DNA of 22,808 nucleotides. Origin: a virus. The stretch is taken from positions 1 to 22,808 of the IMG/VR virus record IMGVR_UViG_3300042905_000436; one strand, written 5' to 3'. Numbering within the stretch: position 1 is the stretch's first letter; the number at the start of each line of letters is the position of its first letter. The position numbers and the translations under genes are program-made. Under the pieces are notes generated by a model that was not told the origin of the DNA, did not search any database, and saw only the letters and a list, made by a program, of their open reading frames with translations. Below are positions 3,141 through 21,301 of this stretch, one piece after another.

Positions 3141-3184
3141 AAGATGGTCTTAATATGTGCCTAGATATATAACTGCACCTTGCA

Positions 3185-3214
3185 ATTATATAACAAATAT
3201 ATTTATCATGTCAA
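3185..3214 (-). promoter_or_regulatory. Consensus sigma70-type promoter for gp32, with an internal late-type core
   Basis: The minus strand has TTGACA (3214-3209), an 18-base spacer and TATAAT (3190-3185): both hexamers match the bacterial consensus exactly. Transcription would begin near 3178, leaving a leader of about 50 bases before the gp32 ATG. The spacer contains GATAAATA, the same core found in the two late-type promoters at 13652 and 21256. gp32 could thus be read by host polymerase early and by a modified polymerase late; the second part is inference. Confidence 0.82.
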
Positions 3215-3225
3215 TGAAAAGATAT

Positions 3226-3276: not shown

Positions 3277-4698
3277 CTATTTGGCTAAACCCGCCAATTT
3301 TATCATATCCAAAATATTATTTTTAGATTCTTCCATTGGTCTTTGGTCTACGATTTCTCGATCGTTAGTAGTGGCACCATACAATCCATAATTATAGTTG
3401 CTAACGCCCATTTTGGGAAATTCCATGTTTGGATCTTCCGCAGCAAAGAAATCTTTGGCTCTTTCTACTTCTTCCTGGCTATCAAAAAAAACTGTACCAT
3501 CTTCAATGTTGTATAGAAAACCATTTTTGTCTAATATACTTTGAATCTTAGGATCAATATCCTCGTTGTCAAAAATATTTTCTTCAATATCAGCTTTTTG
3601 ACTTATCTGTTCAGTATTTTGTTTATCTATTGGATTGTTTTCTATTTCTTCAATTATGTCAGATGACCAATCCTCAAATTCTTGTAACTCTCGGCTTTTG
3701 GCTTTTTTATATAATTTATCAACAATAGGCAATGCTACTGTAAGTCTTTCGTCAAACACTTTTCTACTAAATTTTTCCTTTAGTTCAATTAAATCAAAAG
3801 TATTATCTGAATCTTGTTCAGGTTCCCAAAGTTCTTTATATTGGTTATATCCTCTTTGTCCTCTAAGGCTAAACAATGTTCTATGCAAATCACCATAATG
3901 ATCTATAGCAGTTTGTACCATGTTGTTTGTATCTACATCTTCAAATGTTTTTCCCCGCATATTTCTAACAAAAAATCTTAAATCATGCATTTCTTTAATG
4001 ATGGTAGTAATATGTTGGCCAAAGTCATCTTGTAAATTGCCACCATTTTTAAAATGTCTTGCTATTGCTCTTGCGCCGTTTAATGTAGTGCCTTCTGGGC
4101 ATTTAAATCGTTCACCTTCAGCAGTTTCTATAAACAAATTACCAATGTTTCTTGACCTTGCTCCAGACTGTTCAGGATCTATTTTTTTAAAATGTCTAGC
4201 AATAATTCTCACTGGACCTAAATTTTGATAGCTTGTTCTAGAAGTTCCAGTTAAACTTTCCGCTATGTCTGTTTTGTGTTTTAAGTTATCAATAGTAATA
4301 TCAGTTGTGTTTGCTTCTGGTTTTTTAGTAAAAGCAGGCCTACTCATGTTTTGATCATCGTAATCCCACAGGTTTCTAATTGCAATATCTTTTAAACCTA
4401 ATCTAAAATTCTTCCATTGCTCTTTAAGGGCTGGTGTTAAGTATTTGTCAATGTTTTCGTAATACTGAACACTAAGTTTTCCATTATGTTTTTCATCTTG
4501 TTGATCATCTGTACCGTCACTTAATGTAACCATAATCTGACTGAAATCATGGCCTTTTAAAAAAGGAAATATAAAAAGTTTAGCATCACTGGGTTTTGTT
4601 GTATCTTTTCCGTTTTCATCTTTCATCTGAAAACCATGTTGATAAACATTTGCTATTTTATCATAAACTTCTTTGGCTATTTCTTTAATAGTAATCAT
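3277..4698 (-). CDS. Conserved phage structural-type protein with GARSRNI/GERF module
   Basis: The function of this 473-residue protein is not known. Residues about 164-220 form a module I recognise from marine myophage structural proteins, also without known role: RIIARHFKKI, then SGARSRNIGNLFIE, then EGERFKCP, then LNGARAIARHFKNGG. The IARHFK hexamer thus occurs twice, 46 residues apart. Later parts are acidic and charged (about 345-400). The C-terminus ends NNILDMIKLAGLAK, a motif shared with termini of the 547- and 640-residue proteins in this window. The N-terminus (MITIKEIAKE) weakly resembles capsid-targeting leaders. It lies 30 bases after gp17. No clear Shine-Dalgarno precedes the ATG. 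A virion or head-assembly role is inferred from the shared motif and neighbours. Confidence 0.78.
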   Translation of the reverse strand: MITIKEIAKEVYDKIANVYQHGFQMKDENGKDTTKPSDAKLFIFPFLKGHDFSQIMVTLSDGTDDQQDEKHNGKLSVQYYENIDKYLTPALKEQWKNFRLGLKDIAIRNLWDYDDQNMSRPAFTKKPEANTTDITIDNLKHKTDIAESLTGTSRTSYQNLGPVRIIARHFKKIDPEQSGARSRNIGNLFIETAEGERFKCPEGTTLNGARAIARHFKNGGNLQDDFGQHITTIIKEMHDLRFFVRNMRGKTFEDVDTNNMVQTAIDHYGDLHRTLFSLRGQRGYNQYKELWEPEQDSDNTFDLIELKEKFSRKVFDERLTVALPIVDKLYKKAKSRELQEFEDWSSDIIEEIENNPIDKQNTEQISQKADIEENIFDNEDIDPKIQSILDKNGFLYNIEDGTVFFDSQEEVERAKDFFAAEDPNMEFPKMGVSNYNYGLYGATTNDREIVDQRPMEESKNNILDMIKLAGLAK

Positions 4699-4728
4699 AA
4701 TATATTATTTAGTTAATTTTTACTAAAC

Positions 4729-6330: not shown

Positions 6331-6357
6331 TATTTATTTAAGATATTTGGTGTTAAC

Positions 6358-6879
6358 ATGAGTGACTGTTTACTTTTAAATCAAGATTTCAATCCTATCA
6401 GTATATTACCACTTAGTGTTATTAGTTGGCAGCATGCCATTAAATTAATGTTTATGGACAGAATTGTGGTATTAGAACACTATGATAATTGGCAAATTCA
6501 CAGTGAAAAATTAACTATAAATGTCCCCAGTGTGGCTGTCACAACGGAATATTTTTCTTTTAAAAAGTCTGCAAAGTTCAGCAGACATAATTTATTCCTA
6601 CGGGATATGTATCAATGTCAATATTGTTTAGATACTTTTAGACCATTTGATTTAACAATTGATCATGTAATACCAAGAAAGCATGGTGGTAAAACTAATT
6701 GGGAAAATTGTGTATCTGCTTGCCGAACATGCAATAGTAAAAAAGGGGCAAAGTTAATTAAGCCTAATCGTATGCCATTTAAACCAGATCATTATCATTT
6801 AATTAACAAATGGCGTGCAAGAACTGTAAAAGTGCAGCATCCAGGTTGGTACAAATACTTAGGTATTGAGCCTAATTAG
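6358..6879 (+). CDS. HNH endonuclease
   Basis: This 173-residue protein has a complete zinc-ribbon HNH nuclease site: CQYC at 87-90, the metal-binding LTIDHVIPRKHGG at 99-111 (Asp102, His103), Asn117 in WENC, and CRTCNSKKG at 122-130. The layout matches the HNH family common in bacteria and marine phages, in which LNQDFNPISILPLSVISW-type N-termini (7-24) precede RDMYQCQYC. It is the only plus-strand gene, has its own promoter-like site, and its TAG overlaps the stop of the convergent 127-residue gene by four bases. It may be a mobile (homing-type) endonuclease or a phage nuclease acting on host or competitor DNA. Location beside gp17 also allows a packaging role; the sequence does not decide. 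Confidence 0.93.
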   Translation: MSDCLLLNQDFNPISILPLSVISWQHAIKLMFMDRIVVLEHYDNWQIHSEKLTINVPSVAVTTEYFSFKKSAKFSRHNLFLRDMYQCQYCLDTFRPFDLTIDHVIPRKHGGKTNWENCVSACRTCNSKKGAKLIKPNRMPFKPDHYHLINKWRARTVKVQHPGWYKYLGIEPN

Positions 6880-7263: not shown

Positions 7264-9186
7264 TCACCAAGCTCTACAGGACCAGTATCTCGCTCGCCAA
7301 CGGGGACCGGGATTTGCACAATTATGTCTTGCTCTAAAACTTTTACGGCGTTTAGGATTAGATTTTTTAATACGCATATTTGGGTCACCAAAATTGACTT
7401 TAACCACATTGCCTTTGGGCCCTTTTACATACACTTTAGATTTTTTAACATCTCCCTGCATAGGTTTGCCTAATGGAACTTCACGACCTTGATACTTAGC
7501 TTCTAATGTGTCTTTTAACCCTGCATAGTGCATGGGAAATTTACTGTAATATTCTTTTTCTCTAGAGTTTTGATAATCGTTTCTATCATAATCATCATAG
7601 TCTCTTTCTGCACGACTTTTTAACAGACTAATTAGTTCTTTTTCAGCTTGATCTAATTCTGATTGATTTAATTGTTTAGTAGGATTATTCAATACTTTAG
7701 TGTTAACGAAATCTAATTCACCGTCATAAGTTTCGTATTCAATTTCAACTTCTATAAGATCGCCTGTTTCTGAGTCTTCGATTTCTACAACTTTAGTTGG
7801 GCCTTCAGTGATTATTTCTGCTTCATTTATTTTTTCTTTATCTAAATATCCTAATTTATTAAGATAATTATAGGCATACTCATCCGCTTCTAAGACGAAA
7901 CCATCTTGTGTTAGATTTACTATATTCATTTCTATAAGAAAATCCCCAAGCTCTAGACCAAAACGATCCTGTATCTGGGGACTATCTGATTCATTTATTT
8001 TTTTTTTTAGAAGTAAAGATTCATATTCTTTAAGAAAACTTAATGATACAGATTCTTTTACTGCAATAGGACTGTCACTGAATCTGGCAGCGCCATCTTT
8101 AACCATTTTCTTAGTTTTACCGGCAACTTCACCTGTGCCACCTTTAAGCTGTGTTTCTAAAGGTAGCACTTTTTCTTCTGGTGTTGTGCTTGCTTCATAA
8201 CGGGAATCTTTGGCTTCATACATTTGTTCAACTTCAGGTTGTGTTGTTTTCATACCTGCTAAAGATAATAGTTGCATCAATTGTACAGCAGCATCGCCAT
8301 CTGCAGTTACAGTAACACTTTTATTGCCATCACTGCTCATGTTTGTACTAATATTCATTTTACCTTCGTTATTATCCATACCATTAGCCATTGGACCCAT
8401 TTCTCCGCATTCGGAAATCTGTTCACTTTCTCTGACTTTTTCCATATCACCGTCACCGTCTAAGTCAGCTTTCTTCAAACCTTTTGCTTTAGCAAGCCTG
8501 ACTTGATTGCCAAAATAATTTCCTTCTTCAACTTCATCTTCTTTAACTTCAGATGCAGAAACATTTGTGTCAGGAACTCCAGGGCCTGCATCCATTGTTG
8601 CTGGATTTGCGCGATTGCCCACTAGTCCCGGAATGTCAACTCCACTTTTTTGTAGTCTTTGAGATGCCATCGAGGGCCCTAATCCTCTTTCCTGACTATA
8701 TATATTAGAGTCTCCGGGTTGCATATATAGACTAGATTTAACACGATTTAAATCTGATTGAAATTGTTGGTTATTTTGTACCTGCTGGGATGCCTGCTGG
8801 CTTGCCTGCTGGCTCATATGGGCCCTACTAGCTTGAAATTCTGAAGGAGATGTTCCAAGCACATATCTCTCATCAACTTTTCCTGCTCTTAATGCTGCTA
8901 AATCAGTGCCTTCAATTCGGCCATCATCGTCAATATCTAATTTGTCCTGATCGCCATGAAGTTCTTCTTCCATTGTGCCAGATTGTTTTACATTACTGCC
9001 AGGAACTGCTTGTGTAGATCCACCTAATGCAGTTGATGTAGCTTGGGGTTGACTTTGTGGTAGAGTAAGTGTTGGTTGCATGGCTGGAGGTTTAGGAGTG
9101 CCAGGTGGGACTACCTGCATCATAGCTTCTTCTTTAAGTCCAGCTAATTTTAAAATATCTAATATATCGTTTACATTTTTTTGCAC
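7264..9186 (-). CDS. 640-residue virion-associated protein with EF-hand-like loops and ARYWSCRAW domain
   Basis: The function is unknown. Translation starts at GTG (9186) with GGAG seven bases upstream. The N-terminus carries ILDILKLAGLKEE (8-20), a motif shared with neighbouring proteins; LMQLLSLAGM (303-312) is a second internal copy. Residues 84-95 (DIDDDGRIEGTD) match an EF-hand calcium loop with Asp at position 12, and 241-249 (DLDGDGDME) is a degenerate second loop. A Gln/Ser-rich stretch lies at 124-144. Sites matching the T4 prohead protease pattern occur at INE/A (453-456) and ITE/G (459-462). The last 55 residues form a basic domain with RRKSFRARHNC and ARYWSCRAW, which I recall from marine phage proteins of unknown role. 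A head or core structural role is inferred. Confidence 0.75.
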   Translation of the reverse strand: MQKNVNDILDILKLAGLKEEAMMQVVPPGTPKPPAMQPTLTLPQSQPQATSTALGGSTQAVPGSNVKQSGTMEEELHGDQDKLDIDDDGRIEGTDLAALRAGKVDERYVLGTSPSEFQASRAHMSQQASQQASQQVQNNQQFQSDLNRVKSSLYMQPGDSNIYSQERGLGPSMASQRLQKSGVDIPGLVGNRANPATMDAGPGVPDTNVSASEVKEDEVEEGNYFGNQVRLAKAKGLKKADLDGDGDMEKVRESEQISECGEMGPMANGMDNNEGKMNISTNMSSDGNKSVTVTADGDAAVQLMQLLSLAGMKTTQPEVEQMYEAKDSRYEASTTPEEKVLPLETQLKGGTGEVAGKTKKMVKDGAARFSDSPIAVKESVSLSFLKEYESLLLKKKINESDSPQIQDRFGLELGDFLIEMNIVNLTQDGFVLEADEYAYNYLNKLGYLDKEKINEAEIITEGPTKVVEIEDSETGDLIEVEIEYETYDGELDFVNTKVLNNPTKQLNQSELDQAEKELISLLKSRAERDYDDYDRNDYQNSREKEYYSKFPMHYAGLKDTLEAKYQGREVPLGKPMQGDVKKSKVYVKGPKGNVVKVNFGDPNMRIKKSNPKRRKSFRARHNCANPGPRWRARYWSCRAW

Positions 9187-9210: not shown

Positions 9211-10854
9211 TTATTTAATCAATCCACTTAATTTTAATAATTCTGACATCTCTTTAAGTTGGCCCTGTTGTTTAGCTAGCATTTCTCTATCTCTATCGTC
9301 CCAAGCTTCTGGATTAATGCCAACCCCTCTAGATAAATATGCCATTGCATTAGCTCTTGTTTGTAGTCTAGACTGTTCTCTTTCCTGCTCAGTAGGTATT
9401 TTAGGAAAATCATCGGACCCAGTAGCAGGAAGTACAGTCTTTTTACTCGTTACAGGTGTAGTACCGGCAGGAGCAACAGTAGTAGGTATAGCAGCAGATG
9501 CAGTAGCAGGCGCAGCAGGTGTAGGTGCAGTAGATGCAGCAGATCTAGATGTAGCAGCAGGTGCAGCAGAGGTAGCAGATGCAGCAGCAGGTGCAGCAGA
9601 GGTAGCAGATGCAGCAGGTGTAGATGTAGCAGCAGGTGCAGCGGGTGTAGATGTAGCAGCAGGTGAAGCAGGTCTAGGTGCAGCAGGTGAAGCAGGTCTA
9701 GGTGCAGCAGGAGCAGGGGGTGTAGATGTGGCGGCAGGCGCAGCAGGTCTAGGTGCAGCAGGAGCAGGGGGTGTAGATGTAGCGGCAGGCGCAGCAGGTC
9801 TAGGTGCAGCAGGAGCAGGGGGTGTAGATGTAGCGGCAGGACTGGTTGACCCAATAACTTTATCAATTAACTCATCAGCTTTATCTTTATTTGCTGCATA
9901 TCCTGCTCCCAATGCGCCCAATCCTAATAATTTTCCTGCTTCTCGGCCTCTTTGACCTCCCAAATATCCTCTGCTAGAAACTATTTTATTTTGAACCGGC
10001 TCTCTTACCGAAAAACCAGTGGCTGGCTTTGCTTGTGATATTCCTCTACTAATGGCACTAGTAGAATCGAAACTAGGCACATCTCTTCCTAACAAGTCTT
10101 TTTCTGGAACGCTAAATGGTTTAACTGCACCACCTGCTCCACCAGTTATATCTGTGCCTACACTACCCCCTACCCCACTTCCTCTGGTAGAACTTCCCGA
10201 ACCTGGAATATCAACTGTTATATCGGTCTTTTTGGGTAGTGTAGTAGAGGCATCAGGTAATGAAGGTTCCGCTTTTCCCGCTGGGGGCACTTCACCTTTC
10301 AGACTAGGTTCCGCTTTTGCTGCTGTTTTACCTGCAGTAAAGTCTGTTCCTTTATATTTTAATTGTTGTGCTGCTGCTTGTTCTGCAGGACTTAATCGAG
10401 ATAGTGGAGAAAACAACCTAGGCACCTGCATCGCAGGACCACCAATAATTGGTGGCAATGCTTGTATTACATTTCTAGTTTGTCTTTTTACCTCAGGACT
10501 AATTAAATCATCAGGCTGTACAAATTGTCTATAATTTTGTTTAGGGCCTGCTAATCTATCAGCTGCAGCTCTTATGCTAGGATCCACAGTACTAGGTCTG
10601 TCGTTAGGTATACTAGGATCCACAGGTATGTCTTTGGCCAAATTAATCTGATTTAATGCTTCTTGGGGGCTTAAATTTTTGCTGGTTGCATAATCTTGAA
10701 TAGTTTTAATATCTGCCGTTCTTGCAGCCTCTGCTCTTCTTGAAATTTCCCCTGCCTGAGCTGCACTCCCACGCCTATAGTATCTATTAGCAGGTGAAGT
10801 TTGCTCAGACAGTTTCTGATATAAATTTAACTCATGAAACAACTTAGATTTCAA
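9211..10854 (-). CDS. 547-residue protein with Ala/Pro-rich tandem repeats
   Basis: The function is unknown. It probably starts at TTG (10854): AAAGG lies six bases upstream and the previous gene stops just before it; no ATG gives a plausible alternative near the front. Residues 338-462 are a low-complexity Ala/Pro/Ser/Thr linker containing three 17-residue tandem repeats of the type PAATSTPPAPAAPRPAA. Just before it, KLLGLGALGAGYAA (308-321) is a short hydrophobic segment, probably too short to span a membrane. Residues 1-170 are helical and charged, with a glycine-rich part at 218-242. The C-terminus ends ELLKLSGLIK, matching the terminal motif of the 473- and 640-residue proteins. It lies in the late cluster between the 724- and 640-residue genes. 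A virion or scaffold-type role is inferred. Confidence 0.68.
   Translation of the reverse strand: MKSKLFHELNLYQKLSEQTSPANRYYRRGSAAQAGEISRRAEAARTADIKTIQDYATSKNLSPQEALNQINLAKDIPVDPSIPNDRPSTVDPSIRAAADRLAGPKQNYRQFVQPDDLISPEVKRQTRNVIQALPPIIGGPAMQVPRLFSPLSRLSPAEQAAAQQLKYKGTDFTAGKTAAKAEPSLKGEVPPAGKAEPSLPDASTTLPKKTDITVDIPGSGSSTRGSGVGGSVGTDITGGAGGAVKPFSVPEKDLLGRDVPSFDSTSAISRGISQAKPATGFSVREPVQNKIVSSRGYLGGQRGREAGKLLGLGALGAGYAANKDKADELIDKVIGSTSPAATSTPPAPAAPRPAAPAATSTPPAPAAPRPAAPAATSTPPAPAAPRPASPAAPRPASPAATSTPAAPAATSTPAASATSAAPAAASATSAAPAATSRSAASTAPTPAAPATASAAIPTTVAPAGTTPVTSKKTVLPATGSDDFPKIPTEQEREQSRLQTRANAMAYLSRGVGINPEAWDDRDREMLAKQQGQLKEMSELLKLSGLIK
9469..9843 (-). repeat. Low-complexity Ala/Pro coding repeats with a 51-bp tandem core
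   Basis: Within the 547-residue gene, three near-identical 51-base (17-codon) units follow each other at 9691-9843, with agcaggtcta recurring at 9691, 9742 and 9793. Shorter, decayed units of the same GCAGCAGG(T/A) type extend left to about 9470. The stretch is visibly richer in G+C than the rest of the window. Such repeats readily change copy number by recombination or slippage, so linker length may vary between related phages. Confidence 0.88.
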
Positions 10855-13032: not shown

Positions 13033-13632
13033 TTAATTTCCTTTAACTGGGCTAGGGATTTTGTTCTGACGACTACCAATTGGACTCATGTTTCCTAAAG
13101 GTACACTATTAGTGGTTTTGCCTTCTGGGCTTTTGCCGCCTGCAGGAATACTGTATTCGTATTTTCTTGTTTCTTCTAATTCCTTAATTAGTGAAGGAAT
13201 ACGAGCATCACCAACTAAATCTTTGTCGGGTTTTTCTGCAACCATTTCATCTTTGGATAAAACTACATCGCCAGATAAATTGCTTTTTTCTTTGCCTTCT
13301 AATGCTAGCTCGAAAGGACTATTTACAGGAGTAATTCGTAAACAACTTTGATGAATATTAAGTTGTTCTGCTATTAATCCTATTAACTGATCATCTGTAC
13401 ATGGATATTGAAGCTTAACATCAACTACATTAACTTCAACAGGCCCAGCATTTGGAAATAATGGACTTTCCTGTATAGGCAATCTTTTTACATTTTCTGT
13501 ACTGATAAGATTATATGCCTCTAATACAGTCTTAAGTCTATTATTAAAATTTTTAGGCAATTCGCCTGCTAGTCTGATCCTAAAATCATATGTTCTATGA
13601 CTTTCAGTCAAATATGTTTTAAAACTTTTCAT
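13033..13632 (-). CDS. Late-cluster protein with capsid-targeting-like N-terminus
   Basis: The function of this 199-residue protein is unknown. Its first residues, MKSFKTYLTES, closely resemble the capsid-targeting leaders of T4 internal proteins (MKTYQEFIAEA), and LTE/S at 8-11 resembles a prohead protease site. The next part, about residues 15-105 (YDFRIRLAGELPKNFNN, then VEVNVVDVKLQYPCTDDQL), looks like a small alpha/beta domain of a family I recall from marine T4-like phages without a known role. The C-terminal 60 residues are Gly/Pro/Ser-rich and probably disordered. The ATG has AGGA upstream, and a late-type promoter motif ends 19 bases before it, so this is the first gene of the transcription unit running left to 6876. 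Confidence 0.78.
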   Translation of the reverse strand: MKSFKTYLTESHRTYDFRIRLAGELPKNFNNRLKTVLEAYNLISTENVKRLPIQESPLFPNAGPVEVNVVDVKLQYPCTDDQLIGLIAEQLNIHQSCLRITPVNSPFELALEGKEKSNLSGDVVLSKDEMVAEKPDKDLVGDARIPSLIKELEETRKYEYSIPAGGKSPEGKTTNSVPLGNMSPIGSRQNKIPSPVKGN

Positions 13633-13651
13633 AAACGATCCTATTATTATC

Positions 13652-13665
13652 TATTTATCGGAAAA
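13652..13665 (-). promoter_or_regulatory. Late-type promoter motif, copy 1
   Basis: The minus strand reads TTTTCCGATAAATA here. The same 14 bases occur upstream of the tail sheath gene at 21256-21269. The GATAAATA core differs by one base from the T4 late promoter TATAAATA. It lies between the gp16 stop and the start of the 199-residue gene and would give a leader of about a dozen bases. The identity of the two copies is direct; the promoter function is inference. Confidence 0.72.
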
Positions 13666-13670
13666 TTAAA

Positions 13671-14153
13671 TTATTGTGGTTTATTTAGGATCTTATTTAA
13701 AAGACTATTACGATCCAATAACACTGCTTCCCCCTCTATTGGGGCGTCTTGCTCGTTGTTTTTAGCGGTTTGATCTAATCTTAATTTTTTAATTTGTAAG
13801 TCAACCATGCGCAATTTTTTATCTAATTTAGCTTGTTTTGCAGTAATTGCATGACCCAATAAAACTCCTGCAGTTTGAAAAATTGGACCACTAAACCTTG
13901 ACTCAACACTCATACCTAAATCCATTAAGTCATTGAATTTGTCTTTAGCTAAAGTTGCAAGCTCATCTAATTCGTGATCACTGGCTTCAAGATCCCTAAC
14001 ACTAGGCAAAGCTACATCTATTTTGTCTATAGCGAGGTTTACATCTACCAAAGTTTGCTGCTGTTCTTTAATAAAATTTTCTGTAGTTGCTATATCTTCA
14101 GCTGAGTCTGATTGATTAGGCAAATTGAACAGGTCTTCTAATTTTTTTGTCAT
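13671..14153 (-). CDS. 16: Terminase small subunit gp16-like
   Basis: The small terminase forms a ring that regulates the large subunit and starts packaging. This 160-residue protein has about the length of T4 gp16 (164). It is largely helical: a coiled-coil-like N-terminal part (about 24-75) with repeated acidic heptads, a central block KFNDLMDLGMSVESRFSG (72-89) followed by AGVLLGHAITAKQAKLDKKL (95-114), and DLQIKKLRLDQ (118-128). The central block fits the small-terminase pattern of marine T4-like phages as I recall it; resemblance to T4 itself is faint. The ATG overlaps the gp4 stop as TAATG. It stands about 7.4 kb from gp17, so context alone does not prove it. Confidence 0.65.
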   Translation of the reverse strand: MTKKLEDLFNLPNQSDSAEDIATTENFIKEQQQTLVDVNLAIDKIDVALPSVRDLEASDHELDELATLAKDKFNDLMDLGMSVESRFSGPIFQTAGVLLGHAITAKQAKLDKKLRMVDLQIKKLRLDQTAKNNEQDAPIEGEAVLLDRNSLLNKILNKPQ

Positions 14154-14581
14154 TATTTTGTACCTTGAAATATATGATACTCATTGATAACACGAAACAC
14201 TAAACCATTTGCAGCACAATAAGCCTTTGCTGCTTGCCATTTGTGTAAATTCAATATTACTGCAGCTTTGTCTTTATTTGATTTTGCAGATTCAATAAGC
14301 GTTTGATTTTTAGGCTTTATTTCTATTATTTCAGCATGTTTAACTTTATCTTTATCTTCATATAAAATAAAAAAATCAGGCACATATACTGTGTTTTTGT
14401 TTGTAAATGGATTTCTATATGGGATTTGTATTGCTTCGCTAGCCCATTTTAAAATTGCAGGATTTGTATCACAAAAGGTCATAAACTTTTCTTCCCAACT
14501 GCTTCTATAAGTAGGCTGACCTTTACCCACATATTTGTCTGGGTTTTTAATTTTATATTTTCCCTGAGCAAATTTTAACAT
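14153..14581 (-). CDS. 4: Head completion nuclease gp4
   Basis: gp4 of T4 acts late in head maturation and has a nuclease fold of the TnsA/PD-(D/E)XK kind; it is needed for heads to become competent for tail joining. The 142-residue protein (T4: 150) shows the family pattern: YRSSWEEKFMTFCDTNP (25-41, Glu30), ILKWASEAIQIPYRNP (43-58), YVPDFF (66-71, Asp69) and EIIEIKPKNQT (84-94, Glu87 and Lys89). Glu30, Asp69 and the E-x-K pair are the likely metal site. The ATG follows the upstream TAA directly (TAAATG), and the stop overlaps the gp16 start, so the three small genes are probably translated as a coupled set. No strong ribosome site precedes it. Confidence 0.86.
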   Translation of the reverse strand: MLKFAQGKYKIKNPDKYVGKGQPTYRSSWEEKFMTFCDTNPAILKWASEAIQIPYRNPFTNKNTVYVPDFFILYEDKDKVKHAEIIEIKPKNQTLIESAKSNKDKAAVILNLHKWQAAKAYCAANGLVFRVINEYHIFQGTK

Positions 14582-14941
14582 TTAAAATAATATAGATCTT
14601 GAGATATATGGATTAGTTACCGGCGGAACTTTAACCCCCAATAAACTTGTAGGTACTCTACTTAAATTTAAAAATAAAGCTAGATATGCATTTAATTCAT
14701 TATTATCCAATTTTTGGAAGTCTGTTAAAACAACTAAAGGGTCTAAATTTTGTTCTTGTGCTGTGCTAATTACTACTTGTGTGAGTATTTTTGCACTTTC
14801 CTTATTTTGCGTATATTGCTCAAAATAACTATATATTGCATCATTTATGTTTTGACTTACCCCTACTACAGGATTATATATGTTGTTAAAAAATCTTGTT
14901 GTAGGGTTAGTCACTGTTGGTTGAGTTGTAAGTTGTGTCAT
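14582..14941 (-). CDS. Small conserved virion structural protein
   Basis: The function of this 119-residue protein is unknown. It matches, from memory, a family found in T4-like cyanophages next to tail and head-completion genes: RFFNNIYNPVVGVSQNINDA (16-35), NKESAKILTQVVISTAQEQN (46-65) and the strongly patterned end LFLNLSRVPTSLLGVK (89-104) then NPYISRSILF (110-119). It contains no cysteine or membrane segment. The start is ATG at 14941 with only a poor ribosome site, 49 bases after the large structural gene. The gene directly abuts gp4. Recognition of the pattern is moderately firm; a role at the baseplate or neck is only suggested by position. Confidence 0.76.
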   Translation of the reverse strand: MTQLTTQPTVTNPTTRFFNNIYNPVVGVSQNINDAIYSYFEQYTQNKESAKILTQVVISTAQEQNLDPLVVLTDFQKLDNNELNAYLALFLNLSRVPTSLLGVKVPPVTNPYISRSILF

Positions 14942-14990
14942 TGTCTATGATCTTATTTGGCATTCCATGTATTTCTTATATCTTCTAATA

Positions 14991-17261
14991 TTAATCAGAA
15001 CTTACATCGTATGAACTTAAATTCGCACTTTGTATATCGGCTTCCACAGTTTGTTCAGAATTAAAATTCCTGTCAACAATTGGAGCACCTGCAGGACTTG
15101 TTGCAACATAAGATTCTTCATCGCCCCAAAATCCACCAGGTCCTGCATTATTGCCTGATTTAGTAACTGTTTGAACTCCATCTAAATCAAGTGTACGCTG
15201 TGTCCCATCTACATAATTGTAACTTATAGAGCCATCTGGATTTTCTACTTTGGATGTTAAATTTACAGTAGGATTTTTGGGATCGTATCCGCCTGTTCCA
15301 CTCCAAGTGCTGGTTAAATTTCTTATACTTCTTGTTGCTGAATCAAATACCTGACCTATTGCGCCAACTCCAGTGTTTACAATAGGCTGTAATAAATTAT
15401 TTGTAGCTCTATAAATACCGGCGGTTGCTCCTGCACTTATTCCTCCAGCCACTATTTGCCCCAAGAATGATTTACCTAATCCTGTTTTAGCTAAAGTCTC
15501 ATATACTTTCTTTCCAGCTACAACACCACCAACTGCACCCAATGTCTGGGAAATACCATTACTGATTACTGCAGTTGTTCCACCTACTGCTGTAACTACG
15601 CCTGTATTTGGATTAGTGATAAATCTAGTCCCAGTTTCAACATTGACATTTAATGATCTCATAGCATTTGCATTTATTTGATCTAATTGTTGTGGAGTAT
15701 AAGCTTGTGACCCTGCAGGAATTGTGTATAGAACATTATTGTTGTTATCAAAAGCTACACTACTTCCATCTGCATAACTTCTTAAAGTAACCGGATAGCC
15801 AGACTGTCCATTAAAAATTTCTGGGGGTTTTGCTAAATTCTGATTCACATTGCCTGGATTAAAACCATTAGATGTTAAACTAAATGTACTAGGAACAAAA
15901 GTACCATTTTGTAAAGTTAAAACTTGGTTGGACCCAACATTGGGCTGTCCAGTCTGTGCATTAAATGGTATTCCAAATATACCTGCACCCAATTGTCCAA
16001 CTGTAGGGCCAAAAGGTGAATTTTGCACTGTATCTGTTTGTAATCCCCGTTCTACGCCAGCTTGTGCTTGTGATATAGCTGCTCCACCAACACTAATCGC
16101 TGCCCCAGTTGCTAAAGTAGTAGTTGCTCCTCCCACTGTTGTTTGTACTGAGTTAGGATACGGACTATTACCAATGCTTGGATTTGTTCCTACTACACTT
16201 GACCCACCGACTCCGAAACCAGGAGTGCCACCTGCAGTTGGAAAAATTTGTCCAGTCAAACTGCCATTTAATGCACCATTTATAGCACTAGCACCAAATT
16301 GTCCAATTGTTAATTGTGCTGCTGATCTAAAATCTATATTTTTAATATTTTTGTATAAATTATATGCACCAAGTATATCACTAAATAGCCCTCTGCCACT
16401 TCCTTGCCCGTCTGGCCTTGCTAAATCTTGACTACCTGCAGTGCCTATTGCACCAATTAGTCCTGCTCCACTATAGATGTTAGTTGTGCTAGTACTAATT
16501 GGACTAGGAGTAGTATCATAATGTAATATACTGAACCCATTTACATCAACAGGATTTACAGTACCTACTCTGTATTTTACTGTTTCATAAGCAATGGTCA
16601 TGGAATTTGTCATTGTTTCATTATTAGATGCAGAGTCATGTGTGCCATGACGCCATGCAGTTATAATAGGATTAATTAGTTTATATTCAGTAAATCGTTT
16701 ATTGTGTAAACTAAAAATCTGAATATCTCTAAGAAACGGTATTAATTGTCTATTAATTGGGGTAAAACCCCACTTAGATCTTAGTCTTGAATCATACTTA
16801 TGTGGTACACCATATAATTCTGAATTATAGTCACTGTCTCTATAGTAATAGGTATAATAATCATTCCAAAATTTATTCACTACATCTGCTGCATCATCAT
16901 GAAACGATACACTAATTGGATCATAACTAATAGCATTTGTAACAATATTTTTCCTATTATAAGCATTATAAGTTTTATTACTAATAGAAAATTTAGGGAG
17001 ATCTATTCTTTTTATCATTAGCCCAGCTTCATATTGTTCAAATATACTTTGGCTGCTAATTGCATTAGTACTAGCACCTATCATACTTGTTAACCCTGCT
17101 GTTACACTTTGGTTTATATTCAGTACAACATAATATAAAAAGCTTTGTTTAGGAGCAAGGCGTAAATTGTCTGCCACAAAAAGTTTAGTAGCATGTTGAT
17201 ATGGTTGTGTTTTTACATTTGAACCAATTGGTTTTAAATCTGCATTGTATAGTGAGGCCAT
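14991..17261 (-). CDS. Large tube-like structural protein (tail/baseplate)
   Basis: The N-terminal 235 residues look like a tail-tube-related domain: RIDLPKFSISNKTYNAYNRK (85-104), ISVSFHDD (116-123), YYTYYYRDSDY (135-145), and a closing strand MTIAYETVKY (221-230). This order of a ring-forming strand set with FHDD and YNRK motifs is what I associate with tube-initiator or tube-like proteins of marine T4-like phages (the gp19/gp54 group). The remaining 520 residues are Gly/Ser/Asn-rich with a hydrophobic glycine stretch near VAGGISAGATAGIY, unlike gp54. The total of 756 residues is far longer than T4 gp54 (320). It follows gp19 behind a terminator; no Shine-Dalgarno precedes the ATG. A baseplate-proximal tail role is likely; the exact name is unsure. 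Confidence 0.7.
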   Translation of the reverse strand: MASLYNADLKPIGSNVKTQPYQHATKLFVADNLRLAPKQSFLYYVVLNINQSVTAGLTSMIGASTNAISSQSIFEQYEAGLMIKRIDLPKFSISNKTYNAYNRKNIVTNAISYDPISVSFHDDAADVVNKFWNDYYTYYYRDSDYNSELYGVPHKYDSRLRSKWGFTPINRQLIPFLRDIQIFSLHNKRFTEYKLINPIITAWRHGTHDSASNNETMTNSMTIAYETVKYRVGTVNPVDVNGFSILHYDTTPSPISTSTTNIYSGAGLIGAIGTAGSQDLARPDGQGSGRGLFSDILGAYNLYKNIKNIDFRSAAQLTIGQFGASAINGALNGSLTGQIFPTAGGTPGFGVGGSSVVGTNPSIGNSPYPNSVQTTVGGATTTLATGAAISVGGAAISQAQAGVERGLQTDTVQNSPFGPTVGQLGAGIFGIPFNAQTGQPNVGSNQVLTLQNGTFVPSTFSLTSNGFNPGNVNQNLAKPPEIFNGQSGYPVTLRSYADGSSVAFDNNNNVLYTIPAGSQAYTPQQLDQINANAMRSLNVNVETGTRFITNPNTGVVTAVGGTTAVISNGISQTLGAVGGVVAGKKVYETLAKTGLGKSFLGQIVAGGISAGATAGIYRATNNLLQPIVNTGVGAIGQVFDSATRSIRNLTSTWSGTGGYDPKNPTVNLTSKVENPDGSISYNYVDGTQRTLDLDGVQTVTKSGNNAGPGGFWGDEESYVATSPAGAPIVDRNFNSEQTVEADIQSANLSSYDVSSD

Positions 17262-17277
17262 AAATTTATTTAGTCAT

Positions 17278-17303
17278 AAAAAAAGCTCGCTGAGCGAGCT
17301 TTT
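17278..17303 (-). terminator. Rho-independent terminator after tail tube gp19
   Basis: A perfect 10-bp stem (AAAAGCTCGC at 17281-17290 with GCGAGCTTTT at 17294-17303) closes a TGA loop. On the minus strand it is followed by seven T (17284-17278, partly in the stem). It lies 18 bases past the gp19 stop and ends the sheath-tube unit. Confidence 0.92.
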
Positions 17304-17321
17304 AAGGTTTTTCTTATTACT

Positions 17322-17939
17322 TTAGCCAGTAATTGTTCTACCTCTTTCTCTTGGTACAGGAGTACCTACACCACCTGGGTTAGAAGTTTGTAATGCATTG
17401 TCAAACCTAATTTGACAAGTGATAGTCATTGGATCATTACTGCCATAATCAGCATCACCATAGTTCACTGTGGCCAAGAAGCAACCATATAATTCCCAAG
17501 TTTCTAAAACTACTGGTTCAACTGTGCCGTTTCCGCCATCTAACATTTCTAGTTTGCTTACAAACTTGTAATCAATACCTGAACTTGCGCTAGCTTGTTC
17601 TAAGAAATCGAATTGTTTTTGTAATTGTTCGCCAACCAGTCTGCTTACATTACCACCAGCATCGTCTCGTAAGACAATTTGTATTGGTTCCCAAGTTGGT
17701 CTACCTGCTAGGTAAATCATACTATTATACACAGGTATAGTAACAGGGTTCATATTAACATTTGGTCTAGCAAAAGTAACTAATTGTTTTGTAAGTTCTG
17801 TTTTAGGATTAGTTACTCCAAAGTTTAGAAAGGTTCCCCTATATCTAAACTTGAGTTTTGGCATAAGTATACCTTCAGTGCTGGCACTTTGGTTACCACC
17901 TAAGTATACTGTAAAGTTTTTTAATGAAGATTGTGCCAT
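17322..17939 (-). CDS. 19: Tail tube protein gp19
   Basis: gp19 forms the inner tube of the contractile tail through which DNA passes. The protein is 205 residues (T4: 163). Family features are clear: KQLVTFARPN (51-60), VYNSMIYLAGRPTWEPI (70-86), LRDDAGGNV (90-98), EQLQKQFDF (104-112), DYKF (123-126), LDGGNG (133-138), VVLETWELYGCF (143-154) and RFDNALQT (178-185). I choose ATG 17939, preceded by AGGAG at the end of the sheath gene, giving MAQSSLKNF; a longer frame to 17960 would start inside gp18. It follows gp18 directly and ends at a strong terminator, so sheath and tube are made from one transcript, as expected for proteins needed in equal copy number. Confidence 0.95.
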   Translation of the reverse strand: MAQSSLKNFTVYLGGNQSASTEGILMPKLKFRYRGTFLNFGVTNPKTELTKQLVTFARPNVNMNPVTIPVYNSMIYLAGRPTWEPIQIVLRDDAGGNVSRLVGEQLQKQFDFLEQASASSGIDYKFVSKLEMLDGGNGTVEPVVLETWELYGCFLATVNYGDADYGSNDPMTITCQIRFDNALQTSNPGGVGTPVPRERGRTITG

Positions 17940-17943
17940 ATTA

Positions 17944-20900
17944 TTATGCTCCTGTTCCAACGGCCGCTGCCGATGCTAAATTACCACTTTGGATCTCGCC
18001 AGGATTCTTGAGCCTAATTGGAATATATATAAACTCAACATCCTTAGTTGGCTGAATTGCTACATCTACCCATAACTGATTCTGTGCTATACGAGTTGGT
18101 GTATTATTTGTTGTATCGCACACTACTAGATAATCAGTAACACCTCGTTTAGCAATTAGATCATTTAATATACTAGAAACAATAGCAATTACAGCATTTC
18201 TAGTAATAGGATCATTTGGTTCAAATAAGAACGGTCTAACTGCAATATTAAGTTGTGTTCTTAAATAATTTGTTAGTCTTGCAACATTAATTCTATCCAA
18301 TGCACTTGGTGTAGCAGATAATGTCTTTTGACCATAAATTAATAAGCCAGTTCCTGGCAATACTGTTAATGGGTTAATTTTGTTTTCATACATGATGTCT
18401 CGTAAGCCTTGATTTATACCAACACTAATAAATCTACCACTTTGACCATCAATATAACCTATTGCACTCACATTGTCTATTAATCCTCTGCGAGTACCAG
18501 CAGGCGCTAACCAGGGATAACCAACTGTGTCATTCTTAATTAATGCTCTTAACACTACATGACTTGGGGGAACAACTACTGGTACTCCAGTAAATGGATC
18601 AGTAGTCTGGCCACTAGGATAATACACCCCAACATATGGACTTGTGGTATTTAGACCTTCTTCCCCAGTTGCAGTGGCGCCATTAGAATTAGTTGCCCAA
18701 GCCTGAATATCTGTACCTGTTGCAGCTAGTCTAAATGGAGTGTCACCCACTACAAATGCAGTATTATCTTTTTCCTCATTTAGTGCAACCATGTTTGGCA
18801 TTAATTCTGGATATCCAGGGCAAGCAATAATATTAAAGAAGTTGTTATCTTCTCTAATTGCTTCACTGCTATCCATTGCACTCTTTAAGGCTGCAACTAC
18901 CACTCCTCTTGGTGCTTTTCTACCAAAATTAGGAACAACACCACTAGCTTCATATCCGCTTACACTTACCCAACTTGATACAACAGTGGGTAATGATTCG
19001 CCAGGATAAGCTGCTGTTGTGAAGTAATTAGATCTATATTCTTTTACATTATATCCACTTGCTCTGGTATTAAACAACAACATACCTCTTGGATATAAGT
19101 CAGGATCTGGTGCATCTAAATCTACATAATCACTTTCTAACAATGATACAATTGTAGGAATATCATCTGTTATAGGATCTGTATCACCGTCAGTGGCCCA
19201 ACGAGCATCAGCAAATAAAATGCCATTTATACTTGTATTGTCTGTATTATTGATCTGTATCCAAGTGTCTGTAGCGTTCACACTTTGATAACGATACATT
19301 TTTGGATAATTTTCTAGATCACTAGTGTCTAACCATAAATCACCATACTCTAATACAGTGCCATCTGATTGCTCAGTTGGTTCAACACTGCTAATAATTA
19401 CCCCGTTGGGATCTGTTAAACTTAAATCATAACCACGGACATCATTAGTTAGTGTTTTATAGCCTACCCAAGCACTGCCGTTATTAATTAATACATCAAC
19501 TCTGCTTGGAGTGTTATAATACCAACGAGTTCCATTTGCAGGACTTACAGTTGGTGCTGAACTATCAACATAATAATCTGTATCTTCGATTGGTGTCCAA
19601 TTGCTAATTACAAACACATTGGCTGTACCAGTAGGATCTGCATGAATGTTTGTGCCAGATGTTGAAATACCAGCATTAGCAATATTAGAACCTTTACTAA
19701 TTACAATGTCACCGCCAGCAGTGTGTTCAAAGAACAACTGTCCACTTGCATTAAGTCCTGCATTTATATAAGGTATACCTGCTGCTAATACAGGATTAAT
19801 AATGCCTGATGCTGTATTTGCACTAACAGTTATTGTATAACTTTGTGTTGCTGCGCTAGTTAGTACAGGTCTTGTTGTAATTACAAAAGTATTACCAGTT
19901 TGATTGGTAAATGTAGGACTACTTGTTCCTGTACCCACTGTAGAATTAATACCAGATCTATACCATAACTGCATACCAGTTGTTGTATTGGCAAAAGTAT
20001 CATACTGAGTAAACACTGTGCCAGTAGAGATGTTTTGACCACCATTGGTAGGATCTAAACCATATGTAGCTGTGAATACATTTGCATAATCGTTTACAGT
20101 TTGGCTTACAAAAGCTTCGGTAGTGCTGTTATAACGCTTCACAACAGTGGTTAATCCACTGTCCTGAATACTTGTTTTATGCCAGATAGAACCACTTGGT
20201 CTACCTGTATTTGCGGTAAGACTTGTTTGTCCAACATATGTTGGAACACTTGTATAAGGCCCAACATTTGCAGTAGGTCCTCTGAAAATTCCAGGAGTAA
20301 GACCAATATCGGCAATAACTGAATTTGCTGCAGTAGTCGCACCCCAGACATTTGCCCATCTAGTAGCATCTGTAGCACCAGTTGTAAATAATGCAAAATT
20401 ACCAGTACTTAGAACATTAGCTCTAATATCTGTTGGAGTCGCAGTATTAATTGCACTTGCAATATCAGTTGCAGTTGTCATTGAGGTAGTAATGGAGACT
20501 GCTGTGCCGTTAATATAAATTGTTTGATTAGTGCCTATGTCAATTGTTGATGTTTTAGTACTAATAACAGTTGGCACATTGGTGACCCAATTACTGCTAC
20601 CAATAAAGTTCCATTTATTATCCCAAGTCTTTTGCCAAATTCTGTATGGTGCTGTAACTGTTGTTACTGCATAAGAACCAATATTGCCAATATTGGCATT
20701 TGGAGCAAGACCAACAATGTCGTCACTACTATTAATAACTAACACTGATTTGTTTGTAAATGACTGTGTAGTAGCATTCCATTCATATACACCCCAGGTA
20801 CTATCAACAGTATCTAACCAATATGTTCCATTGGTTGGGGGATCTGTTGGACGAGTAGTAGTACCACCTAAATCAGCTAAATCAACATTAGCTCTTTGGA

Positions 20901-21228
20901 TATAAACTTGATTACTTACTGCTAGCAAACTATAGGCTGCTAGAAGACCATATTCATTTTGCTCGTCACCATTGATTGGTGCTCCTGACGCAGTTGTTTT
21001 AAATATTGGGTTACCAAAAGTTTGCACTAATTCTCTTTGACTAGTGATAGTATAGATTTTTGTAGCATTACTAGCTAGCGTACCAGCAGCATATGCTGTG
21101 CCACTGGGATTGTATTTGTTCTCTGCAGTAGCCAAAAGTATATATGCCACCGACCCAACTGCAGCTGGTGCATAGTTACTTTCATCTATTACAGTTACCT
21201 GTACGCCTGGACTTACAAGGTCAGCCAT
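17944..21228 (-). CDS. 18: Tail sheath protein gp18, enlarged
   Basis: gp18 forms the contractile sheath around the tail tube. The N-terminus (MADLVSPGVQVTVIDESNYA) and the C-terminal 300 residues are typical: FNIIACPGYP (798-807), the strand set around YVGVYYP (865-871), PSHVVLRALIKND (888-900), PWLAPAGTRRG (905-915), INPLTVLPGTG (951-961), NVARLTNYLR (981-990), RPFLFEPND (998-1006) and a final strand VEFIYIPIRL (1064-1073). At 1094 residues it is much larger than T4 gp18 (659). The extra length, about 120-760, holds several related short beta modules with W-L-D-T or similar motifs. A late-type promoter and an AAAGGA site precede the ATG. gp19 follows after four bases. Confidence 0.95.
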   Translation of the reverse strand: MADLVSPGVQVTVIDESNYAPAAVGSVAYILLATAENKYNPSGTAYAAGTLASNATKIYTITSQRELVQTFGNPIFKTTASGAPINGDEQNEYGLLAAYSLLAVSNQVYIQRANVDLADLGGTTTRPTDPPTNGTYWLDTVDSTWGVYEWNATTQSFTNKSVLVINSSDDIVGLAPNANIGNIGSYAVTTVTAPYRIWQKTWDNKWNFIGSSNWVTNVPTVISTKTSTIDIGTNQTIYINGTAVSITTSMTTATDIASAINTATPTDIRANVLSTGNFALFTTGATDATRWANVWGATTAANSVIADIGLTPGIFRGPTANVGPYTSVPTYVGQTSLTANTGRPSGSIWHKTSIQDSGLTTVVKRYNSTTEAFVSQTVNDYANVFTATYGLDPTNGGQNISTGTVFTQYDTFANTTTGMQLWYRSGINSTVGTGTSSPTFTNQTGNTFVITTRPVLTSAATQSYTITVSANTASGIINPVLAAGIPYINAGLNASGQLFFEHTAGGDIVISKGSNIANAGISTSGTNIHADPTGTANVFVISNWTPIEDTDYYVDSSAPTVSPANGTRWYYNTPSRVDVLINNGSAWVGYKTLTNDVRGYDLSLTDPNGVIISSVEPTEQSDGTVLEYGDLWLDTSDLENYPKMYRYQSVNATDTWIQINNTDNTSINGILFADARWATDGDTDPITDDIPTIVSLLESDYVDLDAPDPDLYPRGMLLFNTRASGYNVKEYRSNYFTTAAYPGESLPTVVSSWVSVSGYEASGVVPNFGRKAPRGVVVAALKSAMDSSEAIREDNNFFNIIACPGYPELMPNMVALNEEKDNTAFVVGDTPFRLAATGTDIQAWATNSNGATATGEEGLNTTSPYVGVYYPSGQTTDPFTGVPVVVPPSHVVLRALIKNDTVGYPWLAPAGTRRGLIDNVSAIGYIDGQSGRFISVGINQGLRDIMYENKINPLTVLPGTGLLIYGQKTLSATPSALDRINVARLTNYLRTQLNIAVRPFLFEPNDPITRNAVIAIVSSILNDLIAKRGVTDYLVVCDTTNNTPTRIAQNQLWVDVAIQPTKDVEFIYIPIRLKNPGEIQSGNLASAAAVGTGA

Positions 21229-21255
21229 ATCGTTTTCCTTTATTACATTTAAAGA

Positions 21256-21269
21256 TATTTATCGGAAAA
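21256..21269 (-). promoter_or_regulatory. Late-type promoter motif, copy 2
   Basis: The minus strand reads TTTTCCGATAAATA, identical over 14 bases to the copy at 13652-13665. It lies between the terminator of gp1 and the sheath ATG, ending 27 bases before that ATG, with AAAGGA in between as ribosome site. It should start the gp18-gp19 transcript. Confidence 0.75.
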
Positions 21270-21272
21270 CCC

Positions 21273-21301
21273 AAAAAAAACACCCCATATAGGAGTGTTT
21301 T
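21273..21301 (-). terminator. Rho-independent terminator after gp1
   Basis: AAAACAC (21277-21283) pairs with GTGTTTT (21295-21301). The stem continues after one C-A mismatch with CC/GG and closes on an ATATA loop. On the minus strand a run of eight T (21280-21273) follows. It lies 13 bases past the kinase stop and directly before the sheath promoter motif. Confidence 0.82.

Follow-up and report, generated by a model that had tools for sequence, protein, structure and literature searches.

A probable T4-type late promoter element with two spacings, one predicted to give leaderless mRNAs, in uncultured T4-like jumbo phages

A motif repeated before two virion gene units of this viral DNA is best explained as a T4-type late promoter that occurs at two distances from the start codon, the shorter of which would give leaderless mRNAs. 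We put the probability of this joint reading, which draws on comparative sequence analysis, at roughly 0.85. The T4-type late promoter itself is a known kind of element, and the upstream TTTTCC extension proposed in the original prediction is not supported; that reading also overlooked the second class of sites, those with leaderless spacing. The window, meaning the whole stretch of DNA analysed, is a fragment of 22,808 nt.

On the minus strand, TTTTCCGATAAATA was confirmed as two exact copies, at 13665-13652 and 21269-21256, and no further copy was found in the 22.8-kb window at up to two mismatches. The copies sit in the gaps preceding the tail sheath gene (17944-21228, minus strand; PHROG 10581, E 2e-209) and ORF 13632-13033 (13033-13632, minus strand), a virion structural protein gene homologous to PA5oct gp282 (27%, E 2e-14), whose annotation describes a structural protein detected by mass spectrometry. 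Both copies do precede virion genes, as had been claimed. The claim that such an identity is unlikely by chance also held: TTTTCCGATAAATA was the sole 14-mer repeated between two intergenic gaps of the window, and with the 665 intergenic bases (the total by the ORF set used) modelled as a first-order Markov chain, a 14-mer common to any two gaps had a probability of 0.009. The suggested scan for TTTTCCGATAAATA had a divided outcome, in that the core recurs before late genes in relatives, whereas the whole 14-mer showed no enrichment in the window at up to three mismatches; CGATAAATA, scanned as a genome-wide element, gave just 0-4 copies per contig. All four minus-strand ATAAATA sequences of the window (3206, 6337, 13658, and 21262) are intergenic, and the gaps make up only 2.9% of its length. 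The significant part of the repeat is the ATAAATA core and its position, not the whole 14-mer.

The T4-like genes of the window comprise uvsY, uvsX, ssb, terminase, head closure, two tail tubes, sheath, and dNMP kinase. In the putative late promoter of the sheath gene (21256-21269, minus strand), the core GATAAATA occupies 21263-21256 and the sheath ATG (21228) comes 34 nt after the first A of ATAAATA, with an intrinsic terminator (21277-21301, minus strand) between the dNMP kinase gene and this promoter. The other copy of TTTTCCGATAAATA (13652-13665, minus strand; core 13659-13652) lies 26 nt before the ATG of ORF 13632-13033. Two CTAAATA elements are much closer to their genes. One (17267-17273, minus strand) is 12 nt before the ATG (17261) of a second tail-tube-like protein gene (14991-17261, minus strand; PHROG 13438, E 1e-12), a homologue of the PA5oct tail tube protein; it has leaderless geometry and is immediately preceded by an intrinsic terminator (17281-17303, minus strand; AAAAGCTCGCTCAGCGAGCTTTT, then TTT). 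The other (4706-4712, minus strand) has near-leaderless geometry, 14 nt before the ATG of ORF 4698-3277 (ORF 3277; 3277-4698, minus strand), a virion structural protein gene (PHROG 13484, E 1e-16) in which homology to PA5oct gp279 was not detected. Finally, ATAAATA elements were located 43 nt before the ATG (6294) of the terminase large subunit (6331-6337, minus strand), where the element is partly conserved in close orthologues, and 80 nt before the ATG (3126) of the ssb/gp32-like gene (3200-3206, minus strand).

The ssb element sits within the spacer of a sigma70-like TTGACA...TATAAT pair (window 3170-3215, minus strand), and orthologues keep it about 80 nt from the ATG, an arrangement like that of a dual early/late promoter. 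An HNH endonuclease gene (window 6358-6879, plus strand) lies on the opposite strand upstream of the terminase gene and is likely a homing-type insertion. ORFs 7409-6876 and 9186-7264, which are in different frames, have about 146 bases in common (7264-7409), a possible frameshift or assembly error, and ORF 10854-9211 contains a Pro/Ala-rich repetitive tract (window 9450-9866), of which the long other-frame ORFs are a by-product.

Related viral contigs were fetched with the sheath, second tail tube, ORF 13033, and terminase, and about 260 loci were compared, including stretches taken from larger contigs. Across 20 related contigs with 1134 called ORFs, 63% of 266 ATAAATA sequences had a same-strand ORF start no more than 100 nt downstream, compared with about 10% for 20 permutations of the same letters in the same contigs. 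Orthologues were counted as distinct upstream regions and searched for [A/C]TAAATA. The pattern was present before 38/40 sheath, 52/53 ORF 13033 (mostly at 26 nt), 59/64 second tail-tube, and 73/75 ORF 3277 orthologues, and before 52/68 ssb orthologues at distances of 72-98 nt. The predicted enrichment before late genes was thereby recovered, whereas in-operon genes were almost devoid of the motif (uvsX, 1/56; dNMP kinase, 0/39; neck, 0/29; another count, 1/60). Presence before late genes together with near-absence within operons is the distribution that would be expected of a late promoter.

The distance d, counted to the start codon from where [A/C]TAAATA begins, was measured in distinct orthologue regions. 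The results showed two separate classes, with 119 pooled sites at 11-15 nt, none at 16-22 nt, and 159 at 23-60 nt, so that about 40% of sites belong to the short, start-codon-adjacent class. Both classes occur among orthologues of one gene: the second tail-tube gene had 37 sites at d = 12-13 and 22 at d = 23-36, and ORF 3277 had 61 at d = 11-15 and 13 at d = 25-34. A Shine-Dalgarno sequence was found in nearly all leadered regions (sheath, 35/36; ORF 13033, 46/46; second tail tube, 18/20) and in hardly any of the short class (second tail tube, 0/36; ORF 3277, 3/60). At leadered sites, A was enriched at +1 (54%) and T at -1 (55%).

Assuming the T4 rule that RNA begins 12 nt beyond the first A, a site at d = 12 has the A of its ATG at +1. 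Furthermore, an intrinsic terminator was found just upstream in 56/56 distinct regions of second tail-tube orthologues, and since the terminator abuts this gene, a short-class mRNA can start only within the last few nucleotides before the ATG, barring readthrough. The spacing thus points to leaderless late mRNAs with the ATG at about +1, although the d = 14 subclass counts against this, as it would carry a 2-nt leader if the start were strictly at +12. Orthologues of terL and ORF 13671 showed the weaker variants GTAAATA, TTAAATA, and ATAAGTA at the same 12-nt distance before the ATG, suggesting that the core may be looser in leaderless sites. As far as the literature searched extends (most subscription journals lie outside it), the leaderless spacing class appears undescribed for T4-type late promoters, and no reports of leaderless late mRNAs in T4-like phages were found there.

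The strongest competing explanation accepts the short-spaced elements as genuine late promoters and supposes that the protein is made from a downstream in-frame start or from readthrough mRNA, with no leaderless initiation. The start codons are indeed predictions, and readthrough expresses some T4 and host genes. Nevertheless, the N-termini of the second tail-tube and ORF 3277 proteins can be aligned from the very ATG onwards whichever spacing class they belong to, annotated starts in the pelagimyophage HTVC008M coincide with the predicted ones, and the short class combines its want of a Shine-Dalgarno sequence with, at the second tail tube, a strong terminator that separates the upstream gene from the ATG in every orthologue region. 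We consider this explanation unlikely.

In the preferred two-spacing reading, the motif would act as the -10-like TATA box of a gp55-directed late promoter in a lineage of uncultured T4-like jumbo phages, with the consensus (G)[A/C]TAAATA at -13 to -6. Host RNA polymerase core carrying a phage gp55-like sigma factor would open the DNA at the element, and RNA synthesis would begin some 12 nt beyond the first A. An element at least 23 nt before the start codon would yield a leader with a Shine-Dalgarno sequence (sheath, ORF 13033, and ssb), whereas one at 11-15 nt would place the ATG at about +1 and yield a leaderless mRNA (second tail tube and ORF 3277), which would be translated as such. The terminase gene and ORF 13671 would take the leaderless form in relatives. 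A scan of bacterial genome contigs for the host revealed no relative.

The divergent late sigma factor postulated in the original prediction has a counterpart in the relatives. The window is a fragment without a gp55 region of its own, and gp55 is known from the relatives: homologues matching PHROG 12791 were found in 5/8 large relatives, next to a gp47-like gene. These proteins are about 290 aa long, compared with 185 in T4; they have an N-terminal segment in common with T4, contain an inserted stretch, and do not carry the T4 SLDFLYE C-terminus, the letters of the T4 sequence taken here as clamp-binding. The same type of gp55 is present in PA5oct (45% identity). In searches for the clamp protein gp45, phrog_223 gave no match, and PF02916 matched T4 only, missing HTVC008M despite its annotated gp45. 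Clamp binding by gp55 is a property of its C-terminal segment (PMC2988020). The gp55 of the jumbo lineage, without the T4 epitope, may work without a sliding clamp.

As originally proposed, the motif resembles the T4 late promoter, and the TATA-box core N[A/C]TAAATA is kept upstream of late genes. The pooled profile of 260 sites gave 47% G, 26% A, 17% C, and 10% T at -13, and 77% A and 23% C at -12, where the search pattern admits only A or C. The T of the T4-type consensus at -13 was therefore not found as a rule in these sites, but it was not treated as defining for a T4-type late promoter, because this position varies in other T4-like phages (PMC1524935). The variants at -13 include NATAAATA in S-PM2 and A/T in RB49 and KVP40 (PMC2984593, PMC1524935, PMC5259590), and late motifs have been described as ATAAATA in two jumbo phages, CBB and GAP32 (PMC5259590), and as CTAAATA in Aeh1 (PMC1524935). 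Late promoters of the NATAAATA, ATAAATA, and CTAAATA types are already published. Since its first base, at -13, was already known to vary, finding GATAAATA does not by itself point to a new class of promoter.

The proposal that TTTTCC belongs to the recognition sequence, so that a divergent sigma factor would read a longer late promoter, is highly improbable. It could draw on the two identical 14-mers of the window, on the divergence of the relatives' gp55 (its inserted segment and its lack of a T4-like clamp epitope), and on a T-rich-CG upstream block that persists at both genes in the nearest relatives. Even there, only CG at -14/-13 and T-richness upstream of the core are kept (TTTTACG, TTATACG, or TTTCG), and the block is absent elsewhere. 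Conservation ended at -14 in the pooled profile; TTTTCC lies outside the recognised sequence because nothing is conserved upstream of that position, and it is rejected as a promoter part on the strength of this profile. In addition, 4/6 window sites are without the block, and other site pairs in related genomes occasionally share runs of 7-8 bases. Least credible of all are AT-rich recurrence by chance, the -10 box of a sigma70 promoter, and a signal unrelated to promoters, for instance a site of RNA processing. The 30-40% GC of the region and the unenriched 14-mer might speak for these readings, but many orthologues show strong constraint on position, strand, and distance, no -35 element was predicted at the two TTTTCCGATAAATA sites, and the core is identical to the late promoter published for related jumbo phages (PMC5259590).

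The element of this lineage can be set beside known systems. With the T4 late promoter (TATAAATA, read by gp55/gp33/gp45) it has in common the TAAATA core, the position before virion genes, the absence of a -35 element, AT-rich downstream DNA, and, in relatives, the gp55 homologue next to gp47. It differs from T4 in the rarity of T at -13, in allowing C at -12, in its altered gp55, and in the short-spaced class, as no T4 site closer than d = 21 was found in a three-stretch survey of that genome. CBB and GAP32, which are jumbo relatives by their sheath, resemble it in the core, the kind of genes served, the related sheath, and a gp55-like sigma factor, whereas the 43-kb structural regions of GAP32, PA5oct, and Atu_ph07 showed leadered sites only, with none at 11-15 nt. 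The cyanophage and Aeh1 promoters have in common with it a variable -13 and A/C at -12, but no excess of d = 12 sites was found in S-PM2, P-SSM2, or Aeh1.

Among the first 14 isolates searched, HTVC008M alone stood out, with 13 matches at d = 12 compared with 2 for the reversed pattern and 1 at a longer spacing. As in the jumbo lineage, the sites precede structural genes: 12/13 lay exactly on annotated starts, so that [A/C]TAAATA stands exactly 12 nt before the annotated ATGs of 12 genes, structural genes included (among them gp2, gp4, gp48, gp25, tape measure, and gp3 homologues). HTVC008M differs in belonging to another phage family and in its consensus, [A/C]TAAATAGTA. Late-promoter prediction had been unsuccessful in pelagimyophages (PMC7029224). 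Further relatives were tried later: Mosig had 9 matches and no control match, with 6/7 of those checked coinciding with starts, and Melnitz had 5 matches and no control match, with 2/4 coinciding. At 18914-18945 of HTVC008M, the gp2 and gp4 homologues, with start codons only 26 bp apart, have between them two divergent, overlapping late sites of leaderless geometry.

These comparisons raise a broader proposal, which we regard as about evenly poised: several T4-like lineages (the uncultured jumbo clade and the pelagimyophages) would have evolved a leaderless gp55 late promoter in which the spacing sets the start codon at +1. Genes would switch between leaderless and Shine-Dalgarno forms, a terminator-promoter-ATG cassette would insulate single virion genes, and the jumbo gp55 may be clamp-independent.

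Should transcription prove to begin at the ATG, abundant aquatic phages would have their virion genes translated from leaderless late mRNAs, which would change how such promoters must be searched for. They would also offer a natural comparison, with one orthologous gene leaderless in some phages and Shine-Dalgarno-leadered in others.
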